The notes below the pieces were generated by a model. That model was given only the letters and a program-made list of their open reading frames with translations, ran no database searches and had not been told where the DNA came from. 64,000 nt of DNA, from the NCBI GenBank assembly GCA_022425725.1, contig JAKMEY010000019.1, forward strand, positions 1 to 64,000. The letters are read 5' to 3'. Position numbers and translations under genes: made by a program. This stretch comes from Ilumatobacteraceae bacterium (lineage in GTDB: Bacteria; Actinomycetota; Acidimicrobiia; Acidimicrobiales; Ilumatobacteraceae). The first letter of the stretch is position 1, and each line of letters opens with the position of its first letter. Below, one piece after another: positions 1,710 through 35,480 of this stretch.

Positions 1710-3662
1710 TCAGTCTTCAGATGGAGCCTCAGAGGCCCGTCGCTGCAGTTCGTCGACGACGCTCGCATCAGCCAACGTGGTTGTGTCGCCAAGGTTGCGA
1801 CCTTCGGCGACGTCTCGCAGCAGCCGGCGCATGATCTTTCCTGACCGAGTCTTTGGAAGATCAGGTGTGAAGAAAATTGCTTTCGGTTTTGCGATCGCAC
1901 CGATCTCTGCAGCGACGTGATCACGCAACGTTGCGACATCAACATCGTGGCCGCCGCGCAACGTGACGTACGCAAAAATCGCCTGCCCGGTGGTGGGATC
2001 GTTTGCTCCGACAACCGCTGCCTCCGCAACCGACGGGTGCGATACCAGGGCTGACTCGACTTCGGTTGTTGAAATGCGATGACCCGAGACGTTCATGACA
2101 TCGTCGACGCGACCGAGCAACCACAGGTAGCCATCATCGTCGAGGCGGGCCCCGTCACCAGCGAAGTACGACCCATCGAACCGGCTCCAATAGGTCTCCA
2201 CAAAACGCTGAGGGTCACCCCAAATGCCTCGGAGCATTCCCGGCCATGGACGGGTCAGAGTCAGGTATCCCCCTCCCCCATCAACTTCGTTACCGCCGTC
2301 GTCAACCACTGCGATGTCCACGCCAGGAAGGGCGAACGTTGCCGAGCCCGGCTTTGTTGTGGTGTAACCCGGCAGCGGCGAGATCATGATGCCACCGGTT
2401 TCGGTCTGCCACCACGTATCAACGATCGGGCAACGTCCGCCACCGATGTGTTCGTGGTACCACATCCATGCTTCAGGATTGATCGGTTCGCCAACCGTGC
2501 CGAGCAAACGAAGCGACGACAAGTCATGTTTCGCGGGTTCATCAGCGCCCCACTTCATGAACGTTCTGATCGCAGTGGGTGCGGTATAGAAAATGGTGAC
2601 CTTGTACTTTTCGACGATCTCCCAGAACCTGTCGTTGCCCGGGTGATTTGGTACGCCTTCGTACATGACCTGGGTGGCGCCGTTCGCAAGCGGGCCATAC
2701 ACGATGTATGAATGGCCAGTAATCCAGCCTACATCGGCCGTGCACCAGTACACATCTCGGTCACGATGAAGGTCGAAGACGTTGCGATGGGTGTACGCCA
2801 CATGAGTGAGGTAGCCACCGGTCGTGTGCATGATGCCCTTGGGCTTGCCTGTCGTGCCTGATGTGTACAGCAAGAACAGCAGGTCTTCAGAATCCATTGC
2901 TTCAGGCGGGCACGACGCATCGGCCGCCGCCATAAGGTCGTGGTACCAGTGGTCGCGCCCTTCCACCATGTCGACCTCATTGCCACCACGCTCGACGACA
3001 ACAACATGCTCAATCGATGGTGTCTGGGCGACCGCTTCATCGGCAGCAGGCTTCAGCGGGAAGACCTCACCGCGCCGATATCCACCATCGGCTGTGATCA
3101 ACACCTTCGCTTCGGCGTCATTGATTCGGTCGATGAGCGATTGAGAAGAGAAACCCCCGAAGACCACCGAGTGAGGGGCACCAATACGAGCACAAGCCAA
3201 CATCGCAACTGCGGCTTCGGGAACCATCGGGAGATAAATGTTGACGCGATCACCCTTGGTGACCCCGAGGTTCTTCAACACATTCGAAAACTGCTCGACT
3301 TCAGCGAGCAACTCTGCATACGTGATGGTGCGTGTATCACCAGGCTCACCTTCCCAATAGATGGCAACCTTGTCGCCGAAGCCAGCCTTCACATGTCGAT
3401 CGAGACAGTTCTCAGCAACGTTCAGTTTTCCATCAACAAACCATTTCGCGTAGGGAAGATCCCACTCGAGCACCTTCGACCACGGCTGCTGCCAACTGAT
3501 GAGCTCCGAAGCCTGACGGGCCCAAAATGCCTCAAGGTCTGCAGCAGCCTCATCATGCAGGCCTCCATCGCTGACATGGGCGCTCAATGAGAAGTCTGCA
3601 GATGGCGGGAAGCGCCGATTCTCATGCGAAAGTGCGTCGATGGTCTCGTGGTTCTCTGTCAT
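1710..3662 (-). CDS. acsA: Acetyl-CoA synthetase, AMP-forming
   Basis: Product of 650 aa, full length for Acs. It activates acetate to acetyl-AMP and then acetyl-CoA. Seen: ACS N-terminal segment with [15 protein letters not shown]-binding loop [11 protein letters not shown] (about residue 265), WWQTETGG, the hinge/adenylate motif [16 protein letters not shown], and C-terminal [11 protein letters not shown] whose Lys is catalytic and is the residue regulated by acetylation in known Acs enzymes. The start ATG has a GGGGG-type ribosome-binding site, and a -10-like TAGAGT lies at 3694-3699, so it may be transcribed separately from midA 57 bp upstream. It converges on yajQ with a 13-bp gap. Confidence 0.96.
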
Positions 3663-3719
3663 CGTTCCCCCTGTGACGTGCGAAGTACCTCAAACTCTAC
3701 GACAACAGGGGTGGTCGAT

Positions 3720-4712
3720 TCACTGCCGCCACTCGATCGCAAGGAATCCACCAAGCCCCTCAGGGTCGGTAAGGGCTTCAGCTTCAGAAATCCGAGAACG
3801 CATTTTGAGCGCCCTCACATCTGGGCGTGCAGCATTCTTCGCCCACTCACGACGCCCTTCTTCAACCAGTTCTGACAGACCGTGCAACTCGAGCCACTGA
3901 GATTGCGAGCGAACCGTCGAAGGCTCGGGCAATTGATCGATCGGCACTTCGGTAGTGATGTCCTGCTCCCCAGCCGACATGAGGTAGTGGCCACCACGTT
4001 CATGTGACCGGTAGGTACGCAGCCATTCCCGCCATGGGCGCTCCACAAGCCCTGACGTTGTTTGAGTGAAATAGTCAAAGGCAACCAGCGTGCCATTGAG
4101 TCGCTCGGCAATCCCATTCACCCATGACGCAGCCTCATCGATGAGGGGCGCTCGGGCACCGTGAACCGCCTGAGCAGGAAGCACCGTTGGGCACGGATCG
4201 AACGGTGCGCTTAACAGCTCTTGGGCTCCCGAGCTTGTCTCGGCCACGAACGCTTCCCGCCACGTTCCATCGAATACCGCAAGTCGAAATGGCAGATTGT
4301 CAAGTAACTCGTTGGCGAGGACGACGCCATGAAGATCTCCTTCGGGTAGCGAATTCAACGACGCAACACCCGAGGGATGCGCTTCACGTTGATGATCTGC
4401 AATTTCAATCGCGTGATATCTGAGGGCGGCGGAGCACTTGGGCTCAGCGGTGACGACCGAACGGGCCAAGGTTCCTGGTCCGGCCCCCACTTCGTAGACG
4501 TTGAATACTGAGGGAGACCCTGCGGCATTCCATTCAGCGTCGAGAAAGCGTGCCACCACCGCACCAAATAACGGCCCTATCTCGGGTGAAGTGATGAAAT
4601 CGCCTCGGCGTCCAGCCGAACCTCCCGAGGAGTAAAAACCATTGCTGCCGTAAAGAGCGTCAGCCATGAACCGGTCGAAACCGACCGGTGAGAGCTCAGA
4701 GCCCGAGGGCAC
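3720..4712 (-). CDS. MidA/NDUFAF7-type SAM-dependent methyltransferase
   Basis: Product of 330 aa of the DUF185/COG1565 family. Seen: N-terminal FDRFMADALYGSNGFYSSGG, the family signature DFITSPEIGPLFG, the SAM-binding loop YEVGAGPGTLARS, and NELLDNLPFRL in the middle. The mitochondrial member NDUFAF7 dimethylates Arg85 of the complex I subunit NDUFS2 during assembly. The gene starts with GTG inside the 3' end of nuoN (17-bp overlap), so translation is coupled to the 11-subunit complex I operon. That operon's NuoD carries the matching Arg (residue 69). I infer that it modifies or assembles this complex. Confidence 0.88.
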   Translation of the reverse strand: MPSGSELSPVGFDRFMADALYGSNGFYSSGGSAGRRGDFITSPEIGPLFGAVVARFLDAEWNAAGSPSVFNVYEVGAGPGTLARSVVTAEPKCSAALRYHAIEIADHQREAHPSGVASLNSLPEGDLHGVVLANELLDNLPFRLAVFDGTWREAFVAETSSGAQELLSAPFDPCPTVLPAQAVHGARAPLIDEAASWVNGIAERLNGTLVAFDYFTQTTSGLVERPWREWLRTYRSHERGGHYLMSAGEQDITTEVPIDQLPEPSTVRSQSQWLELHGLSELVEEGRREWAKNAARPDVRALKMRSRISEAEALTDPEGLGGFLAIEWRQ

Positions 4713-6204
4713 CGGTCAAGTCAGGAAGATCAGCGAAGCGCAACACAAGCCCTGGCAAGATGCCGAGGACAACGGTTCCAGCTGCGGTAATACCAAGCGC
4801 CAACCAGATCGATGATGGTGGCGATATCGGGGTCGTATCACCATCTGGCACCGGCGACATCCAGATCTGGCGGAGCACACGCATGTAGTAACCCGCCGCA
4901 ATGACCGTGTTCACCGCTGCGATGATTGCCAAGACATAGGCCGATGTTGAACCCGCATCGATGAGCGCCTTGAACGCCTGGAGTTTCGCAATCCAGATGC
5001 CGAGCGGCGGGATTCCAGCAAGCGAGGCCAAGAAGATGGTCATCAACACGCCGAGACCTGGCGCGTACGACATGAGCCCACCAAACGATGAAATCTCGCC
5101 CGAGCGAGTTTTGCGAGCAACCGCAATAATGACTGCGAATGCGCCGAGGTTCGAGAAGGCATAGATGAGCAGGTAGATCACGACCGCTCTCAGCGATGAC
5201 TCGGCAACTCCGGTACCCATGACTGCGAGCGGCATGAGAATGAACCCACCCTGACTCACCGATGAATAGGCGAGCATGCGAACGATGTTGGTTTGCCGGA
5301 GGGCGACCATGTTGCCGACGGTCATCGTGAGTGCAGCCATCGCCCAGATGAACGGGCCATGCACCTCATCGGCGCCATAGAGACCGAGGTAGAGCACGGT
5401 GAGCAGAGCCACAAAGCCTGCTGATTTCGATGCGACCGACAAGAACGCAGTAACGGGTGTTGGAGCACCTTCGTAGGTGTCTGGTGCCCAAGTGTGGAAC
5501 GGAACCGCAGAGATCTTGAACGCAAAGCCGGCGACGACAAAGACAACTGCCAACACCTGCATTCCGGTGAGATCACCCGAGAGCGCTGCGCCGATTTCAG
5601 TGAGTTTGGTCGAGCCTGTCGTGCCATACAAGAAACTCATTCCGTACAGCAGCACACCTGAAGCGAATACACCAAGCAGGTAATACTTCACACCAGCCTC
5701 GTTGCTCTTCACATCACGCTTACGCCAGGCAGCCATCATGTACGCAGGAATCGAGAGCAGTTCAAGTGCAACAAACACGCTGAGAAGGTCACGGCTTGAG
5801 GCCATCATCACCATGCCGAGCACGCTCACCATCATGAGCACATAGAACTCGCCCTGGTAATAGCCACCCTCTTCGAGCTCGTTCTGACTGAGCAACACCA
5901 CGACATAACCGACGAGTAAGAACAATGCCTTCAGAATGAGGGCGTACTCATCGACCACATATCGGCCATCAAAAATGGCGTCTCGCACGTCTCCGCCAAG
6001 AACAGCAAGCGTCACCACCGGGATCACTGCGCCAAGCATGACAAAACCGGTCAAAGTCGCCATCGCCCACTTTTTCGACTCGTCGAGCCAGAGATCAATC
6101 AGCAGCACCAGGTTGATACCAGCAATCAACACCAACTCAGGTGCGATGGCATGCCAATCGATCGTTGGCGCCGTCCAGGCTTGAGCGAGCAGAGAACTGA
6201 TCAC
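4696..6204 (-). CDS. nuoN: NuoN-like antiporter subunit, 11-subunit complex I
   Basis: Product of 502 aa, a multi-helix membrane protein of the Mrp/Nuo antiporter family. Key proton-channel residues are present: Glu in FVALELLSIPAYM and Lys in FAFKISAVPFHTWAPDTYEGAPTPV. Further helices contain VRMLAYSSVSQGGF. It forms one proton-pumping unit of the membrane arm. It overlaps nuoM upstream by 4 bp and midA downstream by 17 bp. Confidence 0.95.
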   Translation of the reverse strand: MISSLLAQAWTAPTIDWHAIAPELVLIAGINLVLLIDLWLDESKKWAMATLTGFVMLGAVIPVVTLAVLGGDVRDAIFDGRYVVDEYALILKALFLLVGYVVVLLSQNELEEGGYYQGEFYVLMMVSVLGMVMMASSRDLLSVFVALELLSIPAYMMAAWRKRDVKSNEAGVKYYLLGVFASGVLLYGMSFLYGTTGSTKLTEIGAALSGDLTGMQVLAVVFVVAGFAFKISAVPFHTWAPDTYEGAPTPVTAFLSVASKSAGFVALLTVLYLGLYGADEVHGPFIWAMAALTMTVGNMVALRQTNIVRMLAYSSVSQGGFILMPLAVMGTGVAESSLRAVVIYLLIYAFSNLGAFAVIIAVARKTRSGEISSFGGLMSYAPGLGVLMTIFLASLAGIPPLGIWIAKLQAFKALIDAGSTSAYVLAIIAAVNTVIAAGYYMRVLRQIWMSPVPDGDTTPISPPSSIWLALGITAAGTVVLGILPGLVLRFADLPDLTGALGL

Positions 6205-7784
6205 GGGATGCCCGCTCCTACGCGCTCAATGAGCAACGACACGGCCGGGTCCATCACACCGAACATCAGTTGTGGGTACACACCGAAGACAACGATCGCA
6301 ATGAGGAACGGAGTCCAAGCGATCCACTCGATCTTTGTGACGTCGTGGAGATCAACATCGTGGTGCTCATCGTTCACGCCAGCGCCAACCGGGTGATGAG
6401 CGCTCTGTTCGAACTCTGGGTTCGGACGTCCAAATGCGGTGCGCTGATACAACCACAAGAGGTAGGCAGCAGCGAACACCGTACCGATTGCGGCAATCAC
6501 CATGAGCGTGCGGAAGAGTGCCTCGCTCAACCCGAAGTTGGGGTTATAGGCAGACAGGATTGCGGGGAACTCGCCCCAGAACCCGGCAAGGCCGGGAAGG
6601 CCGAGCGATGCCATTGCTGCGAAACCAAGAATCCAACCCAAGCGCGGCATCTGAATGAGCAGGCCAGAAAGTCGCGAAATCTCAAGCGTGTGGTAGCGAT
6701 GCTTCACCGAACCGGCAACGAAGAAGAGCATGCCAGTGATGAGGCCGTGAGCGACCATTCCGAACAGAGCCGCGTTGATACCGAAGTCGGTGAGGGTCGA
6801 GATACCAAGCATGACGAATCCCATGTGAGCGACCGATGAGAACGCGATCAGGCGCTTCATGTCGGTTTGAGCGAGGCATCCGAGTGCACCATAGATGATG
6901 CCGATCACGGCGAGGATGCCAATGGCCGGAGCCCACGCCTTTGCGCCTTGGGGAAGCATCGGAATGGCGATGCGGACGAAACCGTAGGTACCGAGCTTCA
7001 GAAGGATTGCGGCCAAGATGACTGAACCCTGTGTCGGTGCCTGAGTGTGTGCATCAGGCAGCCAGGTGTGGAACGGGAACATCGGCACCTTCACCGCAAA
7101 TCCGACGAACATTCCTGCAAAGATCCAGATCTGCACATCACGATCGATAAGCGCTCCAGCCTCCATGAGGTGCGCAAATGAGAACGACGCCGCACCGGTC
7201 TGGAAGAAGAGCGCCAGGAAGGCCACGAGCATGAGGGCCGAACCAAACATGGTGTAAAGGAAGAACTTCAATGACGCGTATTGACGATCGTCGCCGCCCC
7301 AGACACCGATCATGAAGTACATCGGCAGGAGAACGACTTCGAAGAACACGAAGAACAAGATGAGGTCTTGGGCGATAAACGACCCCGCCATACCGACCTG
7401 CAGCACCAGCATCAGGATGATGAACGACTTCGGGTTGCCAGCGTCCGGCATGTTGTCCCAGGTGTAGATCATGACAAGCAACGTCACGACCATCGACAAG
7501 AAATACAGCGGAAGGCTGATGCCATCGAGGCCGATGGTGTAATTCGACTTGATAACAGTGATCCACTCACTGTCAACGAAGAACTGCAACTTCTCACTCT
7601 GATCAAAATCGAAGCGAAGCAGCGTGTACACACCAACAGCTGCGGTCACCGCAGAAGTAAGAATGCCGATCTGCTTATGTGTCTTCTCTTCTGATGCCGG
7701 TACGAACATCATGAGAAGAACGCCAACGAGCGGCAAGAAGGTGCCGACCGTTAGGAGCCAGGTGTCGTTGGTAATGGTTTGCAT
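6201..7784 (-). CDS. nuoM: NuoM-like antiporter subunit, 11-subunit complex I
   Basis: Product of 527 aa. Seen: the Glu-bearing FFEVVLLPMYFMIG, the Lys-bearing AVKVPMFPFHTWLPDAHTQAPT, and MKRLIAFSSVAHMGF. This is the central proton-pumping subunit of the membrane arm. A charged His/Asp-rich loop (EHHDVDLHDV) lies near the C-terminus. It is 28 bp downstream of nuoL and overlaps nuoN by 4 bp. Confidence 0.95.
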   Translation of the reverse strand: MQTITNDTWLLTVGTFLPLVGVLLMMFVPASEEKTHKQIGILTSAVTAAVGVYTLLRFDFDQSEKLQFFVDSEWITVIKSNYTIGLDGISLPLYFLSMVVTLLVMIYTWDNMPDAGNPKSFIILMLVLQVGMAGSFIAQDLILFFVFFEVVLLPMYFMIGVWGGDDRQYASLKFFLYTMFGSALMLVAFLALFFQTGAASFSFAHLMEAGALIDRDVQIWIFAGMFVGFAVKVPMFPFHTWLPDAHTQAPTQGSVILAAILLKLGTYGFVRIAIPMLPQGAKAWAPAIGILAVIGIIYGALGCLAQTDMKRLIAFSSVAHMGFVMLGISTLTDFGINAALFGMVAHGLITGMLFFVAGSVKHRYHTLEISRLSGLLIQMPRLGWILGFAAMASLGLPGLAGFWGEFPAILSAYNPNFGLSEALFRTLMVIAAIGTVFAAAYLLWLYQRTAFGRPNPEFEQSAHHPVGAGVNDEHHDVDLHDVTKIEWIAWTPFLIAIVVFGVYPQLMFGVMDPAVSLLIERVGAGIP

Positions 7785-7812: not shown

Positions 7813-10239
7813 TCAGATGTTCACGAGGATGAGAACGATTGCTCCCACCGTCGCTGCACCGAAGAGCAACGCTCCGTACTGATTGACCTTTCCTGATTGG
7901 ACCGGCTGCAAGGCGTGGCCGCCTTCGCTCGCTGCCAATCCAGATGCGTTCACCGCTCCATCAACCACACGCTGGTCGACGTTGCGATAGACCCATTCGC
8001 CGGTTCTCCGGCCCCCGCGTCCAACGTTGTTGACGATGCCGTCGAGAATGTTTTGGTTCACCCAGTAGGCCGCTCGCGCTATCGGGTGAGCGAACGCAAA
8101 CACGATGACCTTTTCGTAGAGGTGATCCAAGTAGTACTTGTTGACCAGCAATGTGTGAACCCACCGTGCTGGAGCGAACTTTGATGTGAGGCCAGCAAAC
8201 GGGTTTCTTCGGTCGCCGTAGATTCCCATGCAGACCCACGCGCTGAAGAGAATGCCCGCAAAGACAAGGATGATCGACGGCATCGCCTTCGACCATGAGA
8301 ACACAGCATGACTCAATTTCGGTGCGTAACAGACAGTGCCTTCAGATGGATCAGCGAATCCACAGCCTTTTGCTTTGACGTCGTACTCCTCGTCGCCTGC
8401 CTGCACCGCCGCAAGGACAATGCCTGCACTCTCATCTTCTCCAGATGAGTACCCATACTCGTCATCTAACGCGACTTCGACACCGACGGGCTCTACCCAG
8501 TCGGTGAAGTAATGCGTGCCAAACGCAGGCGCGTTGAGATATCCGGAGCCGATCGCAAGAATGGAGAGAACGATGAGCGGAGCCGTGATTCGCCACGGCG
8601 ACTCGTGCGGCCCATGGTGGGCGCCGTGATCATCGTGGGCACCGTGATCATCGTGGGCGTCGCCGTTGTGATCGTCATGATCGGCGTGAGCAGCTCCGTG
8701 AGCGTCGTCATGGCCTTCATCGTGATGCTCACCTGCTGCGGCACCGCGCGGCTTCCCAAAGAACGTGAGGTAGGTCGCCCGGGTCATGTACGCAGGGGTC
8801 ATGAAGGCGCCAACCAGCGCGACGTAGTAGAAGAACTGGTAGCCGTTGTGGCTGGCGTTATCGATGATCTCGTCTTTCGAGAAGAACCCTGAGAAGAACG
8901 GGATACCGCACAGCGCAGCGGTCGACACCATCCATGTAGCCGCCGTGATCGGCATCTTCTTCGCCAGACCACCCATGTCTTTCTTCATGTCGAATGAGTG
9001 ATGTGAACCGGAGTGGCTGATCGAACCCGCACCCAAGAACAGTGCACACTTGAAGAATGCGTGCGTGAAGATGTGGAACACGGCAGGAAGCCATGCACCA
9101 ACACCGAGACCGAGCATCATGTAGCCGAGCTGAGACACCGTTGAATACGCCAAGACTTTCTTGATGTCGTCTTGAACGAATGCAAGCGCGGCAGCGACGA
9201 TGATCGTGATGCCACCGATGATGGTGATGAAGTTCACCGTGGTATCAAGGATGTCGAATCCGACGAAGAACACCGGGTAGAGACGTGCGACCAAGAAGAC
9301 ACCAGCGACGACCATGGTCGACGAGTGCAAAAGTGACGACACCGGGGTGGGGCCGGCCATGGCGTCAGGTAGCCACGTGTGAAGTGGGAATTGGCCCGAC
9401 TTACCGATCGAGGCGATAAAGAGCGCAACGCCACCCCAGAACAGGACGCTCTGTGAGGCCTCGCCCGACAGTGCCCACGCTGAGATGCCTCGAATGGAGA
9501 AGCCGTTAGATCCGTGTTCGACCGCCCAATCGTTCGCACCAAAGAAGATAATTGCGGTGCCGACAAGGAGCCCGACGTCACCAACACGAACAGTGAAGAA
9601 TGCCTTCAGGGCGGCACGAGAGTTCGCTTCTTCTTCCCACCAGTGACCGATGAGCATGAACGAGCACAGACCCATGATTTCCCAACCGAGAATGAGCTGC
9701 AGCATGTTCTCCGCGAGAACCATGACAAGCATTCCTGCCGAAAAGAGCGTCAACGATGCGAAGAAATGGGTGTAGCGACGGTCACCTGAGACGTACTCGG
9801 TTGAGTAGATCTGCACCAAGAATGAAATGAATGTGACGAGCAGCAGCAGCATGATCGCCAATCCGTCGATGTGCTGACCGATGCCAAATTCGAGGCCACC
9901 CGATTGCCACCAGGTCCACGACTTCACCACCGGCTCAACAAACGACGCCCCGTAGCCTCCATCGGCAGCGGTAGGGAAGATTGCTCGGAACGCACCGAAG
10001 AAGCCACCTGAGGCGTAGTCGCTGCCGCCCGATGCCGAGTTCACTCGGTCGATCCATTGGAACGTCGCACCGATTGCAATCGCAAGCGAAATACCGATCG
10101 AGACGATGCCTATTTCGCTGCCATTTTGCGGCATCTTCTTGCCGAACAGAATGATGAAGACGAAACCGATCGCTGGAATGAGCGGGATCAGCCACGCGTT
10201 CTCCAAGAACCAGCCAGATGAGAGGGTTGCTCCAAGCAT
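7813..10239 (-). CDS. nuoL: NuoL-like antiporter subunit with His/Asp-rich insertion, 11-subunit complex I
   Basis: Product of 808 aa, clearly longer than the 642-aa NuoL of the second locus. Seen: GWEIMGLCSFMLIGHWW (channel Glu), SIGKSGQFPLHTWLPDAMAG (channel Lys), KKVLAYSTVSQLGYMMLG and FFSGFFSKDEI. Two features are additional: a His/Asp-rich loop at about residues 499-545 with 14 His, and a long acidic stretch near 570-630. The C-terminal part holds the lateral helix region. It lies 7 bp downstream of nuoK. The loop could bind metal or protons; this is inference. Confidence 0.95.
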   Translation of the reverse strand: MLGATLSSGWFLENAWLIPLIPAIGFVFIILFGKKMPQNGSEIGIVSIGISLAIAIGATFQWIDRVNSASGGSDYASGGFFGAFRAIFPTAADGGYGASFVEPVVKSWTWWQSGGLEFGIGQHIDGLAIMLLLLVTFISFLVQIYSTEYVSGDRRYTHFFASLTLFSAGMLVMVLAENMLQLILGWEIMGLCSFMLIGHWWEEEANSRAALKAFFTVRVGDVGLLVGTAIIFFGANDWAVEHGSNGFSIRGISAWALSGEASQSVLFWGGVALFIASIGKSGQFPLHTWLPDAMAGPTPVSSLLHSSTMVVAGVFLVARLYPVFFVGFDILDTTVNFITIIGGITIIVAAALAFVQDDIKKVLAYSTVSQLGYMMLGLGVGAWLPAVFHIFTHAFFKCALFLGAGSISHSGSHHSFDMKKDMGGLAKKMPITAATWMVSTAALCGIPFFSGFFSKDEIIDNASHNGYQFFYYVALVGAFMTPAYMTRATYLTFFGKPRGAAAGEHHDEGHDDAHGAAHADHDDHNGDAHDDHGAHDDHGAHHGPHESPWRITAPLIVLSILAIGSGYLNAPAFGTHYFTDWVEPVGVEVALDDEYGYSSGEDESAGIVLAAVQAGDEEYDVKAKGCGFADPSEGTVCYAPKLSHAVFSWSKAMPSIILVFAGILFSAWVCMGIYGDRRNPFAGLTSKFAPARWVHTLLVNKYYLDHLYEKVIVFAFAHPIARAAYWVNQNILDGIVNNVGRGGRRTGEWVYRNVDQRVVDGAVNASGLAASEGGHALQPVQSGKVNQYGALLFGAATVGAIVLILVNI
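8619..8654. repeat. Tandem 18-bp repeat inside nuoL
   Basis: Two adjacent 18-bp units (8619-8636 and 8637-8654), GGGCGCCGTGATCATCGT and GGGCACCGTGATCATCGT, differ at one base. A degenerate continuation follows. They encode DDHGAH-type repeats within the His/Asp-rich loop of NuoL and suggest that the loop grew by slippage. Confidence 0.85.
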
Positions 10240-10246
10240 TAGACCA

Positions 10247-10546
10247 TTAACCCTTCATCACCGAGAGTTCATCAAGAGCGATCGAACGACGGTTGCGATA
10301 AATCATCAGCACCATCGCAAGGCCAACACCAACTTCTGCGGCCGCTACCGCAATCACATACAGAGCGAAGACATGCCCCTCAGGTGAGTTGTTCATCATT
10401 GCAAATGCGATCAGGTTGAGGTTCACCGAGTTGAGAATCAACTCGATCGACATCAACACCATCACCGCGTTACGCCGGGCGATAACACCAAAGACCCCTA
10501 TTGAGAACAGCACTGCCGCCAAGATGAGGAAGTTCACTGCGTACAT
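10247..10546 (-). CDS. nuoK: NuoK subunit, 11-subunit complex I
   Basis: Product of 99 aa with three transmembrane helices. The two conserved membrane glutamates are in MSIELILNSVNLN and AAAEVGVGLA. The ATG at 10546 is chosen because MYAVNFLILAA matches the family N-terminus and lies 1 bp after the nuoJ stop; an upstream in-frame start would read back into nuoJ. Confidence 0.94.
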   Translation of the reverse strand: MYAVNFLILAAVLFSIGVFGVIARRNAVMVLMSIELILNSVNLNLIAFAMMNNSPEGHVFALYVIAVAAAEVGVGLAMVLMIYRNRRSIALDELSVMKG

Positions 10547-10547
10547 G

Positions 10548-11069
10548 TCAGTCCTTCCTCGCCAAGACAATCGCGCCAATTGCAGCTGCTAAGAGCACGA
10601 ACGACAACGCCAAGAACGGCACAAGGCCTTCACGGAGAAACACATCAGAAATAGCGGTCGTCGACATCGGCTCTTCGGGGGACGCAAGCACCTCTCCGCC
10701 GTACTGATCGACAATGACCCAGACCAAGGTGCCGGCAAGCAACAACGACACCGGAATTCCGATCGACCAGTTCTTGTTATTGAGATCTGCTTCATCGCCG
10801 ATCGTCGCTCGGGTCAACATAATGCCGAACAAGAACAGCACCATGACGGCTCCGATGTAGACCATGACCTGAGAAATCGCCACAAATTCAGCAGCCGCCA
10901 ACAAGTACTGAGCAGCAACTCCACCGAGAACGACGACGAGCCACAGCGCAGCGTGCACGACATTACGGCCACTCACGACACGCAACGCACCGAACACCAT
11001 GATGGCGGCGATGATGTAGAAGCTAACGTTCTGCGCAACGTTGACATCAGCGGCGAGCATCAAGCTCAT
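10548..11069 (-). CDS. nuoJ: NuoJ subunit, 11-subunit complex I
   Basis: Product of 173 aa with five predicted helices. The core segment is [20 protein letters not shown], the conserved third-helix region of NuoJ/ND6 near the proton-transfer path. The start ATG overlaps the nuoI stop by 4 bp, and the stop is followed directly by nuoK. Confidence 0.93.
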
Positions 11070-11551
11070 TTCTTCTTCTCCGCGCCGGCTTCAAGTTCGG
11101 GTGCTTCTGGAACGGTTTCCATCCACTCGCCGAGCTTGTCTTTATCGTGCAACAAGTCAGCGATACGAGGTTCTGAATACTCGTATTCAGGGCTCCAGAA
11201 GAGTGCATCGAACGGACACACCTCTACGCAAATACCGCAATACATGCAAAGGGCATAGTCGATATCGAAACGGTCGAGATGGTTGACCTTGCGAGGCTTG
11301 CCACCGGCGCGTCGTGGCGGTGCGAGTTGCTTGTGTCCTTCGATGTAGATGCACCAGTCGGGGCATGAACGCGCGCACAGCATGCACGCCGTGCAGTTGT
11401 CTTCACGCAACGCAATCACGCCGCGAGCACGAACGGGAGGCGCTTCTTTTGCATGCGGGTACTGCACTGTGTCTGCACCATTTTTTACGGTACGGAACAG
11501 CGTCCCCATGGTGACGCCAAGACCTTTTACGAGACCAGGAACCTTTGGCAT
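11066..11551 (-). CDS. nuoI: NuoI subunit, 2x[4Fe-4S], 11-subunit complex I
   Basis: Product of 161 aa. Two complete CxxCxxCxxxCP motifs carry the N6a/N6b-type clusters: C53/C56/C59/C63 ([12 protein letters not shown]) and C102/C105/C108/C112 ([12 protein letters not shown]). It begins [10 protein letters not shown] at the ATG that shares one base with the nuoH stop. It conducts electrons in the peripheral arm. Because nuoEFG are absent here, these clusters are the likely entry point for electrons from an unknown donor. Confidence 0.94.
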
Positions 11552-12603
11552 CAGATCGCAACCTTCAAGATGGCGGTCACCGCAATATTTGCGAGCGACA
11601 ACGGAATGAGCACCTTCCATGCAAACCGCTGGAGTTGGTCTTCACGGAACCGTGGGTACGAAAAACGCACCCACATAATGATGCCGGTGAGCACCAGCAT
11701 CTTCGTCAGCATGATGACTGGACCAACAATGTTCATCCAGCCGTCGACAGCGTCGAGTGACTCCCAGCCAAACCACGAGAACGGGATACCCCAGCCACCG
11801 AGGAAAAGAACCGACGCAATGAACGCAAACACACCGGCGGTAGCGAACTCGCCGATGAAGAAGATGAGGAATCGGAAGCCGGAGTATTCGGTCATGTAAC
11901 CCGACACCAACTCTGACTCTGCGATCGGCATGTCAAACGGCACCTGAGTGAGTTCTGCCTGAACCGCAATCATGAAAATGAGGAACCCAACGAACTGAGT
12001 GAGCACAAACGGGAAGCCGACTCCGTCCCAGCCGAAGATTGAGCCTGAGTTCTGCGCCACAACGATCTGCTGCAGGTTCATTGATCCGGCCTGAATCACG
12101 ACGCCAACGACCGCCAACACCATCGGAAGTTCATAGGCGATGAGCTGACCTGCGGCTCGGAGACCACCGAGCAGTGAGTACTTGTTTGCGCTCGACCAAC
12201 CGGCAACGAGAATGCCGATCACCGACACCGAACCGATGGCGAGCGCATAAAACACGCCGGCGGAGAAGTTGGTGAAGAGAGCATCGGGCCCAAATGGAAC
12301 GACAACGACGAGCAAGAACGTCGACACCAGCACGATGACGGGAGCCAACTTGTAGATCTTCGCGTCAGCATTCTCGGGAATGATGTCCTCTTTCTGCAGC
12401 CATTTGCCAACCTCGGCAAGCAACTGCATCGAGCCGAAGGGCCCAGCTTCCATGGGGCCAAGACGGCTCTGCATAAACGACATCATCTTGAACAGAAAGA
12501 GGTAAACGATCGTGCCAGCGGGCAGCAAGACGGCGCCGATACCACCGAGCACCCGGAGCAACGACTGACCCCAGTAAGGAATTTCAAGAGCGATGCTCAT
12601 CAT
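11551..12603 (-). CDS. nuoH: NuoH subunit, 11-subunit complex I
   Basis: Product of 350 aa with eight or nine helices; it joins the membrane arm to the quinone chamber. Seen: [13 protein letters not shown] (the equivalent in the second locus is [11 protein letters not shown]), the charged loop [20 protein letters not shown] that lines the quinone path, and [10 protein letters not shown]. The start ATG-ATG overlaps the nuoD stop by one base. The RLGPM variant of the usual RxGPN is a mild divergence. Confidence 0.94.
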
Positions 12604-13775
12604 CAGCGATCGATATCTCCAAGGATGAAGTAAAGACTCGCCAAAATCGTGATGATGTCGGGCACGTACACACCCTTCAACACCCACGGGGTGATCGAAA
12701 TGTTGTTGAACGACGCCGAGCGAATCTTCACCCGGAATGGTCCAAGGTCACCCTTTGAGACCACGTAATACCCCATCTCACCGAGGGGGTTCTCGGTTGA
12801 CACCCATGCTTCGCCCTCAGGAACCTTGATGATACGAGGCACCTTCGTCATGACCGGGCCGGGGGGCAGGGTTTCGATGAGTTGATCGACGATCTTGGTT
12901 GCCTCGCGAACCTCCTGGAGGCGAATCCAGCATCGGGCCCAAGAGTCACCGTCTGGGTGCGTCCACACCCGGAAATCAACCTTGTCGTATGCCAACGGAA
13001 GTGACTGGTCTCGGCGGAGGTCCCAGTCAACACCTGAGGCTCTCAGGTTCGCTCCTGACAACCCGTACTGGCGGGCGACATCAGCGGGGATCACGCCAAT
13101 TCCTCGTGTACGACTTTGGAAAATCTCGTTTCCAAAGAGCAGGTCTTCGATCTCATCGCAGAAATTGCGGAGTTTCTTCATGACCTGACGGGTCTCGTCA
13201 AGCCAGCCCTTCGGCAGGTCGTCTTTCAGCCCACCAATGCGGTCAAAGTTTGGATGGAAACGGCCACCAGTTGCGCCTTCAATGAGGTTCAGCACGTACT
13301 CGCGGTCACGGAATGCCATGAACACCGGGGTCACCGCTCCCATCTGCACGCCGAGGTCGCCGAGGAACAGACTCACATTTGCGATGCGAGAGAGTTCAAA
13401 GAGAATGGTTCGGATGTGCTGCGCGCGAGGCGGGGCCTCAATATTCATCAACTGTTCGGCAGCAAGAATGAAAGGCACCTCGTTTGCGAACGATCCGAGC
13501 CAGTCAATTCGGTTGATCAGCGCAGTGACTTGCGGGAATGTGCGAACTTCGGTGAGCTTCTCGTAGCCCCGGTGCATGTACCCCGCCGATGGCTCGGCCC
13601 AGACCACCTGCTCACCGTCAAGACGAGCGATGATTCGGAGCGTTCCGTGGGTTGCGGGGTGCTGTGGGCCGATGTTGAGGGTCATTCCCTCGGTTTCAAG
13701 CTCAACGTTCAATCGGGCGTCAGCAGCTTGAGCAGCGATATACGACATCTGCTGGCGTTCGGACAACATCGTCAT
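12603..13775 (-). CDS. nuoD: NuoD subunit with atypical quinone site, 11-subunit complex I
   Basis: Product of 390 aa, full length for NuoD. Conserved: GPQHPATHG with His43 (quinone-site His, Thermus His38), ASGVDWDLRR, and the C-terminal GDIDR. Unusual: the quinone-binding Tyr (Thermus Tyr87) is Trp92, in LINRIDWLGSF. Arg69 in MHRGYEK matches mitochondrial NDUFS2 Arg85, the NDUFAF7 methylation site. Overlaps nuoC by 4 bp and nuoH by 1 bp. The protein is clearly a NuoD and not a [NiFe]-hydrogenase large subunit, as the nickel Cys pairs are missing. Confidence 0.95.
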   Translation of the reverse strand: MTMLSERQQMSYIAAQAADARLNVELETEGMTLNIGPQHPATHGTLRIIARLDGEQVVWAEPSAGYMHRGYEKLTEVRTFPQVTALINRIDWLGSFANEVPFILAAEQLMNIEAPPRAQHIRTILFELSRIANVSLFLGDLGVQMGAVTPVFMAFRDREYVLNLIEGATGGRFHPNFDRIGGLKDDLPKGWLDETRQVMKKLRNFCDEIEDLLFGNEIFQSRTRGIGVIPADVARQYGLSGANLRASGVDWDLRRDQSLPLAYDKVDFRVWTHPDGDSWARCWIRLQEVREATKIVDQLIETLPPGPVMTKVPRIIKVPEGEAWVSTENPLGEMGYYVVSKGDLGPFRVKIRSASFNNISITPWVLKGVYVPDIITILASLYFILGDIDR

Positions 13776-14437
13776 GAGTCATCTCCTTCGTCATCATCGC
13801 TCGCTGGCATTGGTTCAACATCGACAATCCCGGGCCATGGCTTCACCAAGCGTGCGAGCAGGGGGAAATCTTTTCGCAATGGGTAGCCCTCGAAATCACC
13901 GGGGAGGTACATATTTCGCAGATCGGGGTGGCCGTCAAACGAAATGCCGAACATCTCATGGGTTTCACGCTCATGCCAATTCGCACCGGCGTACACGGGA
14001 ATCCAACTCTCGATCGACATTGCGCCGTCGTCATGTTGAGGGAGGTCCGCTTTCAAGGTGACGCTCACATGCCGTCGGGTGTCGGTGACACGGGCCAGCA
14101 TTTGGAATCGGGTGTCTCCCCCGGTGTAACCCTGACGGATCTCGCTTGCGGCCGGATCTTCTTCGACTTCTTCGGTCGGGTCGTTCTCGCCGTCACCAAA
14201 TGGCGATGGCATCCAGTCCATTGCTGAAAGAAAGCAGAAATAGTCAAAACCCTGTGCCCGCAGCGCTTCACCAGCTGCACGCCACGACTCGGGAGTCACT
14301 CGCACCCAGAGATCAACCTGCGGCACCTGATGAACGTCGACCACCGCATCACCGAGATCTGCACGAAGCCGGGCAACGATCTCATCGCGCAGTTCGTCAA
14401 CAACTGGTGTTGATTCGTCAGTGTCGGTGTCACTCAA
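13772..14437 (-). CDS. nuoC: NuoC subunit, 11-subunit complex I
   Basis: Product of 221 aa. Family signatures: [11 protein letters not shown], the [20 protein letters not shown] block and [10 protein letters not shown]. An acidic insertion (EEVEEDP) lies around residue 95. I place the start at a TTG (14437) because a GGAGG ribosome-binding site lies about 8 nt upstream within nuoB; a GTG at 14446 is the alternative. Overlaps nuoB by 8 bp and nuoD by 4 bp. Confidence 0.9.
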
Positions 14438-14975
14438 TTGGGCCACCTCCGACGACGATGGGCTCACTCTCTCGCACAATCGGCTTGAAGCCTTCTCCAC
14501 GCCAACGGGCACCCATATCTTCGTGCTTAATCCGCTGCTGCAGGAGCACAACGCCTTCCAACAGAGCCTCTGGTCGAGGAGGGCAGCCGGGCACATACAC
14601 ATCGACCGGAACGATCTGGTCGACACCCTTCGTCACCGAGTACGAATCCCAGTAGGGGCCACCACAGTTCGCGCATGAACCCATCGAGATGACGTACTTT
14701 GGCTCTGGCATCTGCTCGTACAAGCGCTTCACAGCTGGTGCCATCTTGTCGGTGACAGTTCCTGATACGACGACAAGGTCGGCTTGACGAGGGCTTGCTG
14801 GCAATGGGATAACACCGAGACGCATGACGTCGTAGCGGGGCGATCCGAATGCCGCACCCATCTCGATGGCGCAACACGCGAGACCCCACTGATATACCCA
14901 CATTGAGTAGGAACGACCAATGTTGAACAATTTGGTGAGTGGAGCCGGCAAACGGCCACGGTCGACTAGACCCAT
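14430..14975 (-). CDS. nuoB: NuoB subunit, N2 iron-sulfur cluster, 11-subunit complex I
   Basis: Product of 181 aa. Ligands of the terminal [4Fe-4S] cluster N2 are present: Cys34-Cys35 in GLACCAIEM, Cys101 in GSCANCGG and Cys131 in [11 protein letters not shown]. An extra Cys104 follows Cys101; the second locus has Ser there (VCASSGG). The protein delivers electrons to quinone. Overlaps nuoA by 10 bp and nuoC by 8 bp. Confidence 0.95.
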
Positions 14976-15331
14976 CGGAGAAGTCCTCGCTTCCAGGCAT
15001 ATACGAGTCCGTCAAGCAACAACACGATGAACGCGAGCATGGTGACCAACCCGAAGGTGCCATAACGCTCGATGGCGGCAGCCCATGGGAAGATAAACAC
15101 AGCCTCAACGTCAAAGATGACGAAGAGCAATGCGAACACGTAGTACCGGACTTGGCTTTGTGACCATCCGAGACCTACCGGATCAACACCTGACTCGTAG
15201 GTAAGGAGTTTCTCAGGGGAGGGTCGAGACGGCCGGATAAGCGCAGCAATACCAAGCAGAAGACCTGCCAACAGCATTGCCGCCAGTCCGAACCAAACAA
15301 CGTTGAGGTAATCGCGCAGAAATAGCGACAT
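14966..15331 (-). CDS. nuoA: NuoA subunit, first gene of the 11-subunit complex I operon
   Basis: Product of 121 aa with three helices, the conserved loop [11 protein letters not shown], and the acidic helix [15 protein letters not shown]. It starts the operon nuoABCDHIJKLMN-midA. A TATCGT -10-like box lies 9 nt before the ATG and no Shine-Dalgarno is visible, so the leader is very short. It is divergent from the MFS gene with 31 bp between starts. Confidence 0.94.
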
Positions 15332-33056: not shown

Positions 33057-34376
33057 CTAGCGGTCCACTTCTCCGAGCACCGGATCAACCGATGAGATGA
33101 CAGCGACGGCGTCAGCAACGAGACCACCGCGCATCATGTGTGGAAGACATTGAATGTTGACAAACGAAGGAGCCCGCACGTGCATGCGGTACGGCGTCGG
33201 TGAACCATCGCTTGCGATGTAACAACCAATTTCGCCGCGCGGACTCTCGATCGCGACGTACACCTCGCCTTCGGGCACTTTGAATCCTTCGGTGAAGATC
33301 TTGAAGTGGTGAATGAGAGCTTCCATCGACTCGTCGATTCGGGCCCTCGGTGGAGGGGTGACCTTCTTGTCTTGAATTCGGTAATCACCTTCGGGCATCA
33401 GATCGAGGATCTGTCGAACGATCCGCATTGATTCACGGATTTCGTTGAGGCGGATTGCGTACCGGTCAAACGCGTCGCCATAACTGCCGACGATGAGGTC
33501 GAACTCAACCTCGTCATATCGAAGGTACGGATCGTGACGGCGAAGATCCCACTCGACACCGGTTGAGCGCAGAATCGGCCCGGTAGCTCCAAGCGCCAAC
33601 GCTTCGCTCGGGGTAATCACACCAACACCCTGGAGACGTTCACGCCAGATCGGTTGTCCCGTCATCAACGTGTCGTACTCCTCGAGCCGCTCTGGCAGCA
33701 TGTCGAGAATTCGCAACACATCGTCGCGCCACCCTGGAGGAAGATCGGCAGCAAGACCACCGGGGCGCACAAAGTTATGGTTCATGCGAAGACCAGTGAC
33801 CTTCTGGAAGAACCGAAGGACCTCTTCTCGTTCGCGCCAGCCGTAGATCATCATTGACACTGCGCCGAGGTCCATGCCGTTGGTCGCCATAAACAGCAAG
33901 TGGCTGCTCATCCGATTGAGTTCAGACAACAACATGCGCATCCACTGCGCCCGCTCGGGAATGTCGCCATCGATGCCGAGCAACTTCTCGGTCGCCATCG
34001 AAAACACGAGCTCGTTGTTGAGAGGGCTTGCGTAATCCATGCGAGTGACGTTGGTGCCACCCTGCATGAAGGTGAGTTGCTCACCGGTCTTTTCCATGCC
34101 GGTGTGCAGGTAGCCGATGATGGGCTTGCAGCGGAGAACCGTTTCGCCCTGCAGTTCAAGCATGAGCCGGAGCACGCCGTGGGTTGATGGGTGCGATGGT
34201 CCCATGTTGATGACCATCGTCTGGTCCTCATCGGGATCTTCTGGAAGGTCGCCAAGTTTTGCGGCTTCAGCCTCTGACAGCCTGAGAACTGAAGCGACCT
34301 CACGAAGGAGTTCGCTGGCGGTCAGCTCAGAACGGGGCCGGAGTTCCTGTGCGCCTTCGTCAGATATCAACGTCAT
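33057..34376 (-). CDS. nuoD: NuoD subunit, 14-subunit complex I
   Basis: Product of 439 aa with an N-terminal extension of about 50 residues. Canonical quinone-site residues: His66 (PSHPSTHGVLR) and Tyr115 (TRMDYASPL). At the NDUFS2-Arg85 position it has Thr (YLHTGMEK), as Thermus does, unlike the copy at 12603-13775. C-terminus GEVDR. Overlaps nuoC by 4 bp. Confidence 0.95.
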   Translation of the reverse strand: MTLISDEGAQELRPRSELTASELLREVASVLRLSEAEAAKLGDLPEDPDEDQTMVINMGPSHPSTHGVLRLMLELQGETVLRCKPIIGYLHTGMEKTGEQLTFMQGGTNVTRMDYASPLNNELVFSMATEKLLGIDGDIPERAQWMRMLLSELNRMSSHLLFMATNGMDLGAVSMMIYGWREREEVLRFFQKVTGLRMNHNFVRPGGLAADLPPGWRDDVLRILDMLPERLEEYDTLMTGQPIWRERLQGVGVITPSEALALGATGPILRSTGVEWDLRRHDPYLRYDEVEFDLIVGSYGDAFDRYAIRLNEIRESMRIVRQILDLMPEGDYRIQDKKVTPPPRARIDESMEALIHHFKIFTEGFKVPEGEVYVAIESPRGEIGCYIASDGSPTPYRMHVRAPSFVNIQCLPHMMRGGLVADAVAVISSVDPVLGEVDR

Positions 34377-34900
34377 GAGGCTGCGCCTTTAAACTGAACG
34401 GGAATTGTTCCAACTTGAAAATCTTTGCGAAGCGGATAGCCGTTCCAATCTTCAGGCATCAAGATTCGTGATGGGTCCGGGTGACCGTCAAACTCGATCC
34501 CGAACATGTCGAACACTTCTCGCTCCATCGCTTCGGTTCCTGGGTGTAGGTCGAAGAGAGTCGCAACCTTCGCGTCGCCTTCGGGCACCTGAACCCGCAG
34601 CCGAATTCGACGACGGTGGGTGATGTCGAGCAAGTTGACCACCACTTCAAAACGCTCGGCGGTCGCGCTCGATGGAAGGGCTCGCTCCATGTGTTCGGAG
34701 TAATCGACTGCGGTGAGATCGACACACATTGCGTATCCCTCGTCAGCCAATTGCTTCGCCACATCGAGATAGCGGTCACGATCGACGTGCAAGACAAGTT
34801 GCCCACGACTGTCGGTCATCGGGCAACCGAACATCTCGGGCTCAGGAACCTCAGCTACTTCGCTTGACTCCTCGATGGTCTCATCGGGACTATCAGCCAT
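34373..34900 (-). CDS. nuoC: NuoC subunit, 14-subunit complex I
   Basis: Product of 175 aa. Seen: [28 protein letters not shown] and [11 protein letters not shown]. The ATG at 34900 ([10 protein letters not shown]) overlaps the nuoB stop by 8 bp and is the first start after nuoB; longer readings run antisense-like through nuoB. Confidence 0.93.
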
Positions 34901-35480
34901 CGGCCTGTCTTCCGAGCAACACCGGTATGGAGCCAGCGGGGATCTCTTCGACATGGATGTGTGCGCCTCCGCCGTTCTGCTCACGGCGGCGCAAAATTTC
35001 GCCCTGCTCGATCTTCGTGTGCAATGTCTCGATTGCGTGAATGAGCGTTTCTGGGGTTGGAGGGCACCCAGGGGCGTAGACATCGACGGGCACGATCTGG
35101 TCGACGCCCTGGACGATTGCGTAGTTGTTAAACATGCCGCCACTCGATGCACATACACCCATCGATATAACCCACTTTGGCTCCATCATTTGGTCGTAGA
35201 CCTGGCGAAGAACGGGAGCCATTTTCTGGCTGACACGTCCCGCGACGATCATGATGTCGGCCTGACGGGGTGAGGCGCGGAAGACTTCCATGCCAAACCG
35301 GGCGATGTCGTAGTGCGCAGCGCCAGACGCCATCATCTCGATTGCGCAGCACGCAAGTCCAAAGGTTGCCGGCCATGATGAGCGAGAGCGAGACCAGTTC
35401 ACTAGGTCTTCGAGTCGACCGGTGATGACGTTGTGGCTAATTCCGCCTAACCCATCATTGATTACGTCGTCAATCGCCAT
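34893..35480 (-). CDS. nuoB: NuoB subunit, N2 cluster, 14-subunit complex I
   Basis: Product of 195 aa. N2 ligands: the Cys pair in [13 protein letters not shown], Cys in [11 protein letters not shown], and Cys in [11 protein letters not shown]. The sequence is close to the Thermus Nqo6 type throughout. It ends with a C-terminal tail absent from the other copy. 11 bp after nuoA. Confidence 0.95.

Follow-up and report, generated by a model that had tools for sequence, protein, structure and literature searches.

Human and Dictyostelium NDUFAF7/MidA are the closest described counterparts of the methyltransferase considered here. In human cells, dimethylation of NDUFS2 at Arg85, a residue located in the peptide GLLHRGTEK, is reported to fall upon suppression of NDUFAF7 (PMC3829151). 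Mice are reported to die as embryos when NDUFAF7 is lost, and an alphaproteobacterial origin has been described for it (PMC9006661), while the function of prokaryotic MidA has been described as inferred in silico only (PMC12455994). The arginine mark is reported to be present in the bovine, human, Pichia and P. denitrificans enzymes; in E. coli the arginine is present but unmodified, and Thermus has a threonine instead (PMC3750175). In Thermus the arginine is found in the NuoB homologue, and the Arg/Thr switch between the two subunits has already been published (PMC8042128). Complex I-like enzymes composed of 11 subunits and lacking NuoEFG, found in Desulfitobacterium and others, are encoded by the gene set nuoABCDHIJKLMN, and the word "methyltransferase" has 0 occurrences in the main text of the paper describing them (PMC11238625).

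The midA gene and the two complex I loci

The window (the whole stretch of 64,000 nucleotides analyzed, from an Ilumatobacteraceae bacterium) contains two complex I loci. Locus 1 is an 11-subunit cluster without nuoE, nuoF and nuoG, and has the same gene set as the 11-subunit enzymes of Desulfitobacterium and others. Its genes are arranged on the minus strand in the order nuoA-B-C-D-H-I-J-K-L-M-N (15331 down to 4696), followed by midA and acs. Locus 2 (about 36000 down to 20965) is a 14-subunit locus, with nuoE, nuoF and nuoG included. The features are as follows.

1710–3662, minus strand: acs, encoding acetate-CoA ligase, 57 bp downstream of midA (NF001208, 1027.8 bits)
3720–4712, minus strand: midA, 330 residues, GTG start, predicted SAM-dependent protein arginine methyltransferase of the MidA/NDUFAF7 family (PF02636, COG1565)
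4696–4712, minus strand: 17-bp overlap between the end of nuoN and the start of midA, the same 17 bp in relatives L273 and L286
4696–6204, minus strand: nuoN of the 11-subunit locus (TIGR01770, 3e-116)
6201–7784, minus strand: nuoM, locus 1 (from sequence and gene order, the order being shared by relatives)
7813–10239, minus strand: nuoL, locus 1 (sequence and gene order)
10247–10579, minus strand: nuoK, locus 1 (sequence and gene order)
10548–11069, minus strand: nuoJ, locus 1 (sequence and gene order)
11066–11620, minus strand: nuoI, locus 1 (sequence and gene order)
11551–12687, minus strand: nuoH, locus 1 (sequence and gene order; the listed start is probably too far upstream)
12603–13775, minus strand: nuoD1, Arg-type, the likely substrate (NF004739, 1.1e-116)
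13569–13571, minus strand: codon (CGG) of NuoD1 Arg69 in MHRGYEK, the counterpart of human NDUFS2 Arg85 in the alignment
13772–14626, minus strand: nuoC, locus 1 (TIGR01961, 4.1e-25, residues 173–256; the listed start is probably too far upstream)
14430–14975, minus strand: nuoB1, with Thr73 at the inter-subunit switch position
14757–14759, minus strand: codon (ACT) of NuoB1 Thr73, which pairs with Arg69 in the Arg/Thr switch
14966–15331, minus strand: nuoA, locus 1, the first gene of the operon (sequence and gene order)
33057–34376, minus strand: nuoD2, locus 2 (14 subunits), Thr-type in contrast to nuoD1
34101–34103, minus strand: codon (ACC) of NuoD2 Thr92 in LHTGMEK
34893–35480, minus strand: nuoB2, with Arg82 at the switch position (codon 35235–35237)

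As stated in the earlier note, midA starts 17 bp inside nuoN of the 11-subunit operon. The two genes had also been called fused, which is wrong, as they are two open reading frames with a short overlap. A nuoN-midA gene fusion was rejected on the same ground, and 22 of the 27 measured relatives show no overlap at all. The open frame at midA comprises 331 codons, which practically excludes a start further upstream. Neither a terminator-like nor a sigma-70-like site was found in 3300–6300.

The enzyme encoded by midA is a member of the known MidA family, as had been proposed. PF02636 matches its residues 53–261 (E 1.1e-21, 77.9 bits versus a curated cut-off of 23.3), and this is the sole PF02636 match in the source assembly (2.13 Mb in 84 contigs, 92.66% complete); a search for NCBIfam matches to MidA at E 0.001 gave none. 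A profile built from 13 MidA family sequences, run against the PDB at E ≤ 0.01, retrieved three distinct sequences, namely 4f3n/4g67 from Burkholderia thailandensis (4f3n, 2.8e-75), 1zkd from Rhodopseudomonas palustris (3.7e-65) and Dictyostelium NDUFAF7/MidA 5ztz/5zu0/5zzw (5ztz, 2.8e-43). The first two, COG1565 proteins from Pseudomonadota, are the nearest solved structures in both sequence and fold. The AlphaFold model of MidA (pLDDT 93.7) predicts a methyltransferase of seven β-strands carrying the family's own additions. The model superposes on 4g67 with a VIA Z of 32.7 (rmsd 2.4, 316 residues) and on Dictyostelium MidA (5ztz/5zu0) with a Z of 31.2 (rmsd 2.6, 311–312 residues, 22–23% identity over the structural alignment), whereas the next-best other methyltransferases reach a Z of at most 12.9 over ~190 residues. 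MidA harbors the glycine-rich SAM-binding motif VYEVGAGPGTLAR together with the conserved acidic residues, and G80 in this motif, N134, E135, D138, D213, Y214 and D251 are invariant in 35 aligned MidA proteins. Its sequence identity to MidA from L293, a MAG titled uncultured Ilumatobacter, is 61%, and the window therefore probably derives from an Ilumatobacter-like member of the Acidimicrobiia.

Human and Dictyostelium NDUFAF7/MidA (5ztz, 5zu0) thus share family and fold with the window enzyme, and the HRG arginine is also present in the linked NuoD. Unlike them, the window enzyme is bacterial, 330 residues long and encoded in an 11-subunit complex I operon without NuoEFG; the same genome also encodes another complex I that lacks the target arginine, and the methylation activity of the window enzyme is predicted.

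The cell that encodes MidA has a 49-kDa/NuoD subunit with arginine at the HRG position. The site reads GYMHRGYEK in NuoD1 and GYLHTGMEK in NuoD2, so that Arg69 occupies the place of human NDUFS2 Arg85 (HRG in both) and locus 2 has Thr92 instead, both in agreement with the earlier note. The NuoB residues are swapped reciprocally: locus 1 combines NuoD1 Arg69 with NuoB1 Thr73, and locus 2 combines NuoD2 Thr92 with NuoB2 Arg82, which we take to be the position of Thermus Nqo6 Arg83. Locus 2 is therefore arranged like the Thermus-type complex I (Thr in Nqo4, Arg83 in Nqo6), whereas locus 1 of the same genome is the opposite, and both switch states occur in one cell. The pairing was found in 275 of the 279 loci in which both positions were readable, with threonine in NuoB beside 178 of 182 Arg-type NuoD and arginine in NuoB beside all 97 Thr-type NuoD; four loci (G190, G236, G461 and G003) have a NuoB residue other than threonine beside an Arg-type NuoD. 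Because the NuoB residues swap reciprocally with the Arg/Thr of NuoD, the contrast between NuoD1 and NuoD2 is part of the known structural switch.

A further feature was observed in NuoB1 (14430–14975), where a proline precedes ASPRQ, as in 36 of the 112 Arg-type loci read. This residue presumably corresponds to the hydroxylated Arg77 of bovine PSST, and with proline replacing it, NuoB1 cannot carry the second modification known near N2.

Occurrence of midA and of the target arginine

midA goes with the Arg-type NuoD, and a spread of midA regardless of the arginine, named in the earlier note as an outcome that would refute its proposal, was not observed. In Actinomycetota, PF02636 was found in 78 of 296 genomes, and an Arg-type NuoD was read in 75 of these 78. 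A Thr-type nuoD was counted in 63 of the 78 (32 read, 31 by similarity to NuoD2). In Chloroflexota, PF02636 exceeded the cut-off in 88 of 201 genomes, and all 64 of those typed (24 untyped) have an Arg-type NuoD. Sixteen midA-positive genomes stand behind the named loci (the best 80 of 454 relatives) outside Actinomycetota; 15 of them have a NuoD-like protein, with arginine in every case, and beyond the Chloroflexota count (G309 removed, as it is already among the 64) the figure is 14 of 14 genomes with NuoD. Motif matches to NuoD in the named loci carry arginine in 21 of 21, after L234 (HRGPDA) was dropped from 22 as spurious. Within the window's class (35 genomes), midA is present in 25 of the 26 genomes that have an Arg-type NuoD, versus 0 of 9 in which only the Thr type was found. 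In the lone exception, G139, the contig carrying nuoD is 4.8 kb long, and a neighboring gene could be missing; the family model found no MidA elsewhere in this genome.

Three midA-positive actinomycete genomes have only a Thr-type NuoD (G089, L173; G196, L170; G244, L172). In these genomes either contigs are missing or MidA acts on another target.

Among 14 control genomes, only those of Caulobacter, Synechococcus and Haloferax gave a PF02636 match, which shows that the family extends beyond Pseudomonadota. E. coli, one of the 14, gave no PF02636 match, though PF00346 matches there.

The arginine, for its part, does not require the enzyme, since 61 Actinomycetota and 47 Chloroflexota rows that were read have it without detected midA. 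The 61 (60 plus G139) were selected by high NuoD1 score from 218 Pfam-negative Actinomycetota, and in all 60 genomes chosen in this way the best NuoD1-like protein has arginine. Thirty other hand-picked Pfam-negative Actinomycetota gave 23 Thr, one Arg (G003) and six hydrogenase-like or unreadable proteins. When 32 of the Pfam-negative genomes with an Arg-type NuoD were searched with the family model, it recovered one missed MidA in G260 (L534, G260:C26:15896-16879), one of the 60, at ~2 kb from nuoD, and three short matches, which were taken as other methyltransferases; in the remaining Pfam-negative genomes, including the nine Thr-only relatives, midA was scored as absent by PF02636 alone. 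The G260 protein was missed by PF02636 at E 0.001, and in some actinomycetes the Pfam count of the family is too low.

The proposed co-occurrence of midA with HRG-type NuoD thus holds in one direction: midA goes with the Arg type, but the arginine often occurs without midA, and the three midA-positive genomes with only Thr-type NuoD depart from it. On the NuoD tree (351 sequences, G260 still counted as midA-negative), Arg/Thr changes once, whereas midA changes at least 20–22 times among the Arg rows. Genome counts therefore overstate the number of independent events, and co-occurrence alone is weak evidence. Taken together, the single Arg/Thr change and the many changes of midA indicate that the Arg-type enzyme is old and that midA accompanies it optionally.

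A contrast in the NuoD2-like NuoD of Chloroflexota (Arg in 20 of 20 midA-positive versus Thr in 19 of 20 midA-negative) was rejected as independent evidence, since with one change on the tree it amounts to little more than one event.

Gene neighborhoods and the proposed function of MidA

In Actinomycetota, midA is located within 25 kb of an Arg-type nuoD in 47 of the 78 midA-positive genomes, and 15 of these fall within 3 kb. A Thr-type nuoD is found within 25 kb of midA in four, and midA is never nearer to this type than to the Arg type. Of the 75 Arg-type midA-positive genomes, 28 are unlinked within 25 kb, and in 27 of these the genes are on different contigs. In the window's class, midA and nuoD1 are at most 25 kb apart in 23 of 25 midA-positive genomes. 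The Chloroflexota count, from which G373 was left out, gives 16 of 87 midA-positive genomes linked within 25 kb to an Arg-type nuoD (15 of the 16 read, G418 by similarity), an Arg-type place being listed for 78 of the 87 (14 of the 78 by similarity); none of the 87 has midA within 25 kb of a listed Thr-type nuoD (33 with a listed Thr-type place). The linkage to the Arg-type enzyme proposed in the earlier note is supported in that, where the genes are linked, midA is never nearer the Thr-type nuoD.

The arrangement of the genes varies. In 27 of the 80 named loci (the best 80 of 454 relatives), nuoN is located within 1.5 kb upstream of midA on the same strand, with a gap of -26 to 130 (median 22), and in 17 of these 27 measured relatives acs follows midA within 200 bp. 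Among the other named loci, L268 has a partial nuoN upstream, four have nuoN 2–8 kb upstream and six have nuoD tail-to-tail with midA; most of the remaining loci show no nuo gene in the stretch covered, and several of these are titled Acidimicrobiia (L242, L244, L255, L263, L272, L277 and L294). In 18 other Actinomycetota loci drawn, midA is tail-to-tail with nuoD in 13. In the 11 Chloroflexota loci drawn, midA directly precedes nuoA on the same strand in seven, is tail-to-tail with nuoD in one and is divergent from nuoA in three. The 16 named loci outside Actinomycetota, which are titled Pseudomonadota (8), Verrucomicrobia (4), Bacteroidetes, Chloroflexi, Nitrospirae and Euryarchaeota, showed no nuo gene near midA in the stretch covered when searched with actinomycete queries; the eight pseudomonadotal loci come from the phylum in which the bacterial arginine mark was measured. 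An ancestral pair kept in one operon, as the earlier note had suggested, is not supported by these observations, namely nuoN-midA in only 27 of the 80 named loci, the different placements in other lineages and the 16 loci without a nuo neighbor. The repeated linkage in varied orders, observed in two phyla only, is the best evidence of MidA serving the Arg-type enzyme.

Two loci titled Bifidobacterium breve (L266) and Dehalococcoidia (L279) carry an Acidimicrobiia-like nuoN-midA-acs block and are probably misbinned MAG contigs. In a genome of a distant family (L047, G135:C498), nuoD is 80% identical to that of the window and midA lies 9 kb away, which reflects contamination or recent transfer.

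We consider it probable that MidA, using S-adenosylmethionine, symmetrically dimethylates Arg69 of NuoD1, the 49-kDa subunit, and thereby aids assembly of the Q module and tunes cluster N2. Expressed from the tail of the operon, MidA would encounter freshly synthesized NuoD1, and the modified Arg69 would be located at the NuoD/NuoB interface beside N2, where the methyl groups may help NuoD1 to pair with NuoB1 around the cluster (NuoB-NuoD assembly of the Q module). The 14-subunit complex would need no MidA, as NuoD2 has Thr92 and the arginine sits in NuoB2 (Arg82). The action on Arg69, its symmetry and the assembly role are inferred from the eukaryotic enzyme as reported in PMC3829151 and PMC9006661.

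It is unlikely that MidA methylates another target, protein or DNA, with its proximity to complex I reflecting inherited gene order only. Such a target would fit the three midA-positive genomes with only a Thr-type NuoD, the several PF02636 genes in some genomes (G169, G159 and G120), the 16 loci in which no nuo neighbor was found, and the 166 methylated bases reported for Wolbachia MidA expressed in E. coli, a result its authors call preliminary (PMC12455994). However, the linkage recurs in two phyla in different orders (after nuoN, before nuoA, tail-to-tail with nuoD or divergent from nuoA), a variety that inherited order alone would not produce. Moreover, midA is never nearer the Thr-type nuoD, the fold is nearest to Dictyostelium MidA and the bacterial relatives, far above other methyltransferases, and DNA methylation does not explain the linkage of midA with nuo genes.

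Even less probable is a chaperone-like assembly factor that binds the arginine of the Arg-type Q module, with methylation incidental or absent. The unmodified arginine reported for E. coli (PMC3750175) and the many midA-less bacteria that keep the arginine are in line with this role, but G80, N134, E135, D138, D213 and Y214 are invariant in the 35 aligned MidA proteins, and a methyltransferase-deficient Dictyostelium mutant is reported to give no rescue (PMC9006661). A chance overlap of nuoN with an unrelated methyltransferase gene is refuted by the same upstream neighbor on the same strand in the 27 of 80 named relatives (best 80 of 454) and by the 23 of 25 linked genomes in the window's class.

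Loop residues after the arginine and implications

In all 140 midA-positive rows the first residue after the arginine (R+1) is Gly, Ala or Ser, and the second (R+2) is Phe in one; in the 108 midA-negative rows, R+1 is Cys or Asn in 30 and R+2 is Phe in 46. Either feature (Cys/Asn at R+1 or Phe at R+2) is found in 1 of 76 midA-positive versus 49 of 61 midA-negative rows in Actinomycetota, and in 0 of 64 versus 21 of 47 in Chloroflexota; Fisher values on these row counts ignore relatedness. On trees, with G139 dropped for its 4.8-kb nuoD contig and G260 counted as midA-positive, about four independent pairs point the same way versus none the other (median p 0.125), and Actinomycetota alone, with G260 still counted as midA-negative, give p 0.25. 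The feature was chosen post hoc, after the data had been viewed, and the difference of the loop residues with midA status is suggestive at most.

Several Chloroflexota without detected midA (L486, L492, L493, L495–L497, L500–L502, L504 and L510) have the loop HRNHEQ rather than HRGxEK. In this loop an Asn follows the arginine, and the normally fixed Lys is replaced by Gln.

We tentatively propose that the loop adjacent to the arginine co-evolves with MidA, a possibility that we hold to be somewhat less likely than its opposite. A bulky or different neighbor (R-x-F, R-C-x or R-N-H) may structurally substitute for the methyl groups, shielding N2 and locking NuoD to NuoB. If this is true, bacteria would have evolved several replacements for a modification that depends on an enzyme essential in mice, and methylation of complex I would be predictable from the loop sequence in a genome.

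Judged by titles and abstract openings, no report of midA as a neighbor of nuo genes in either Actinomycetota or Chloroflexota was recognized in the open-access literature. The linkage in two phyla, the natural contrast of two complexes in one cell and the loop signature are new as far as we know. The MidA family is widespread in Actinomycetota and Chloroflexota, often beside complex I genes in both, and the pairings in other bacteria suggest that the modification of human complex I has a wider bacterial counterpart. Cells in which an Arg-type complex I coexists with a Thr-type one provide a built-in control, in which one enzyme should be modified and the other cannot be; the purpose of the modification, and the reason why E. 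coli can dispense with it, thereby become directly testable.
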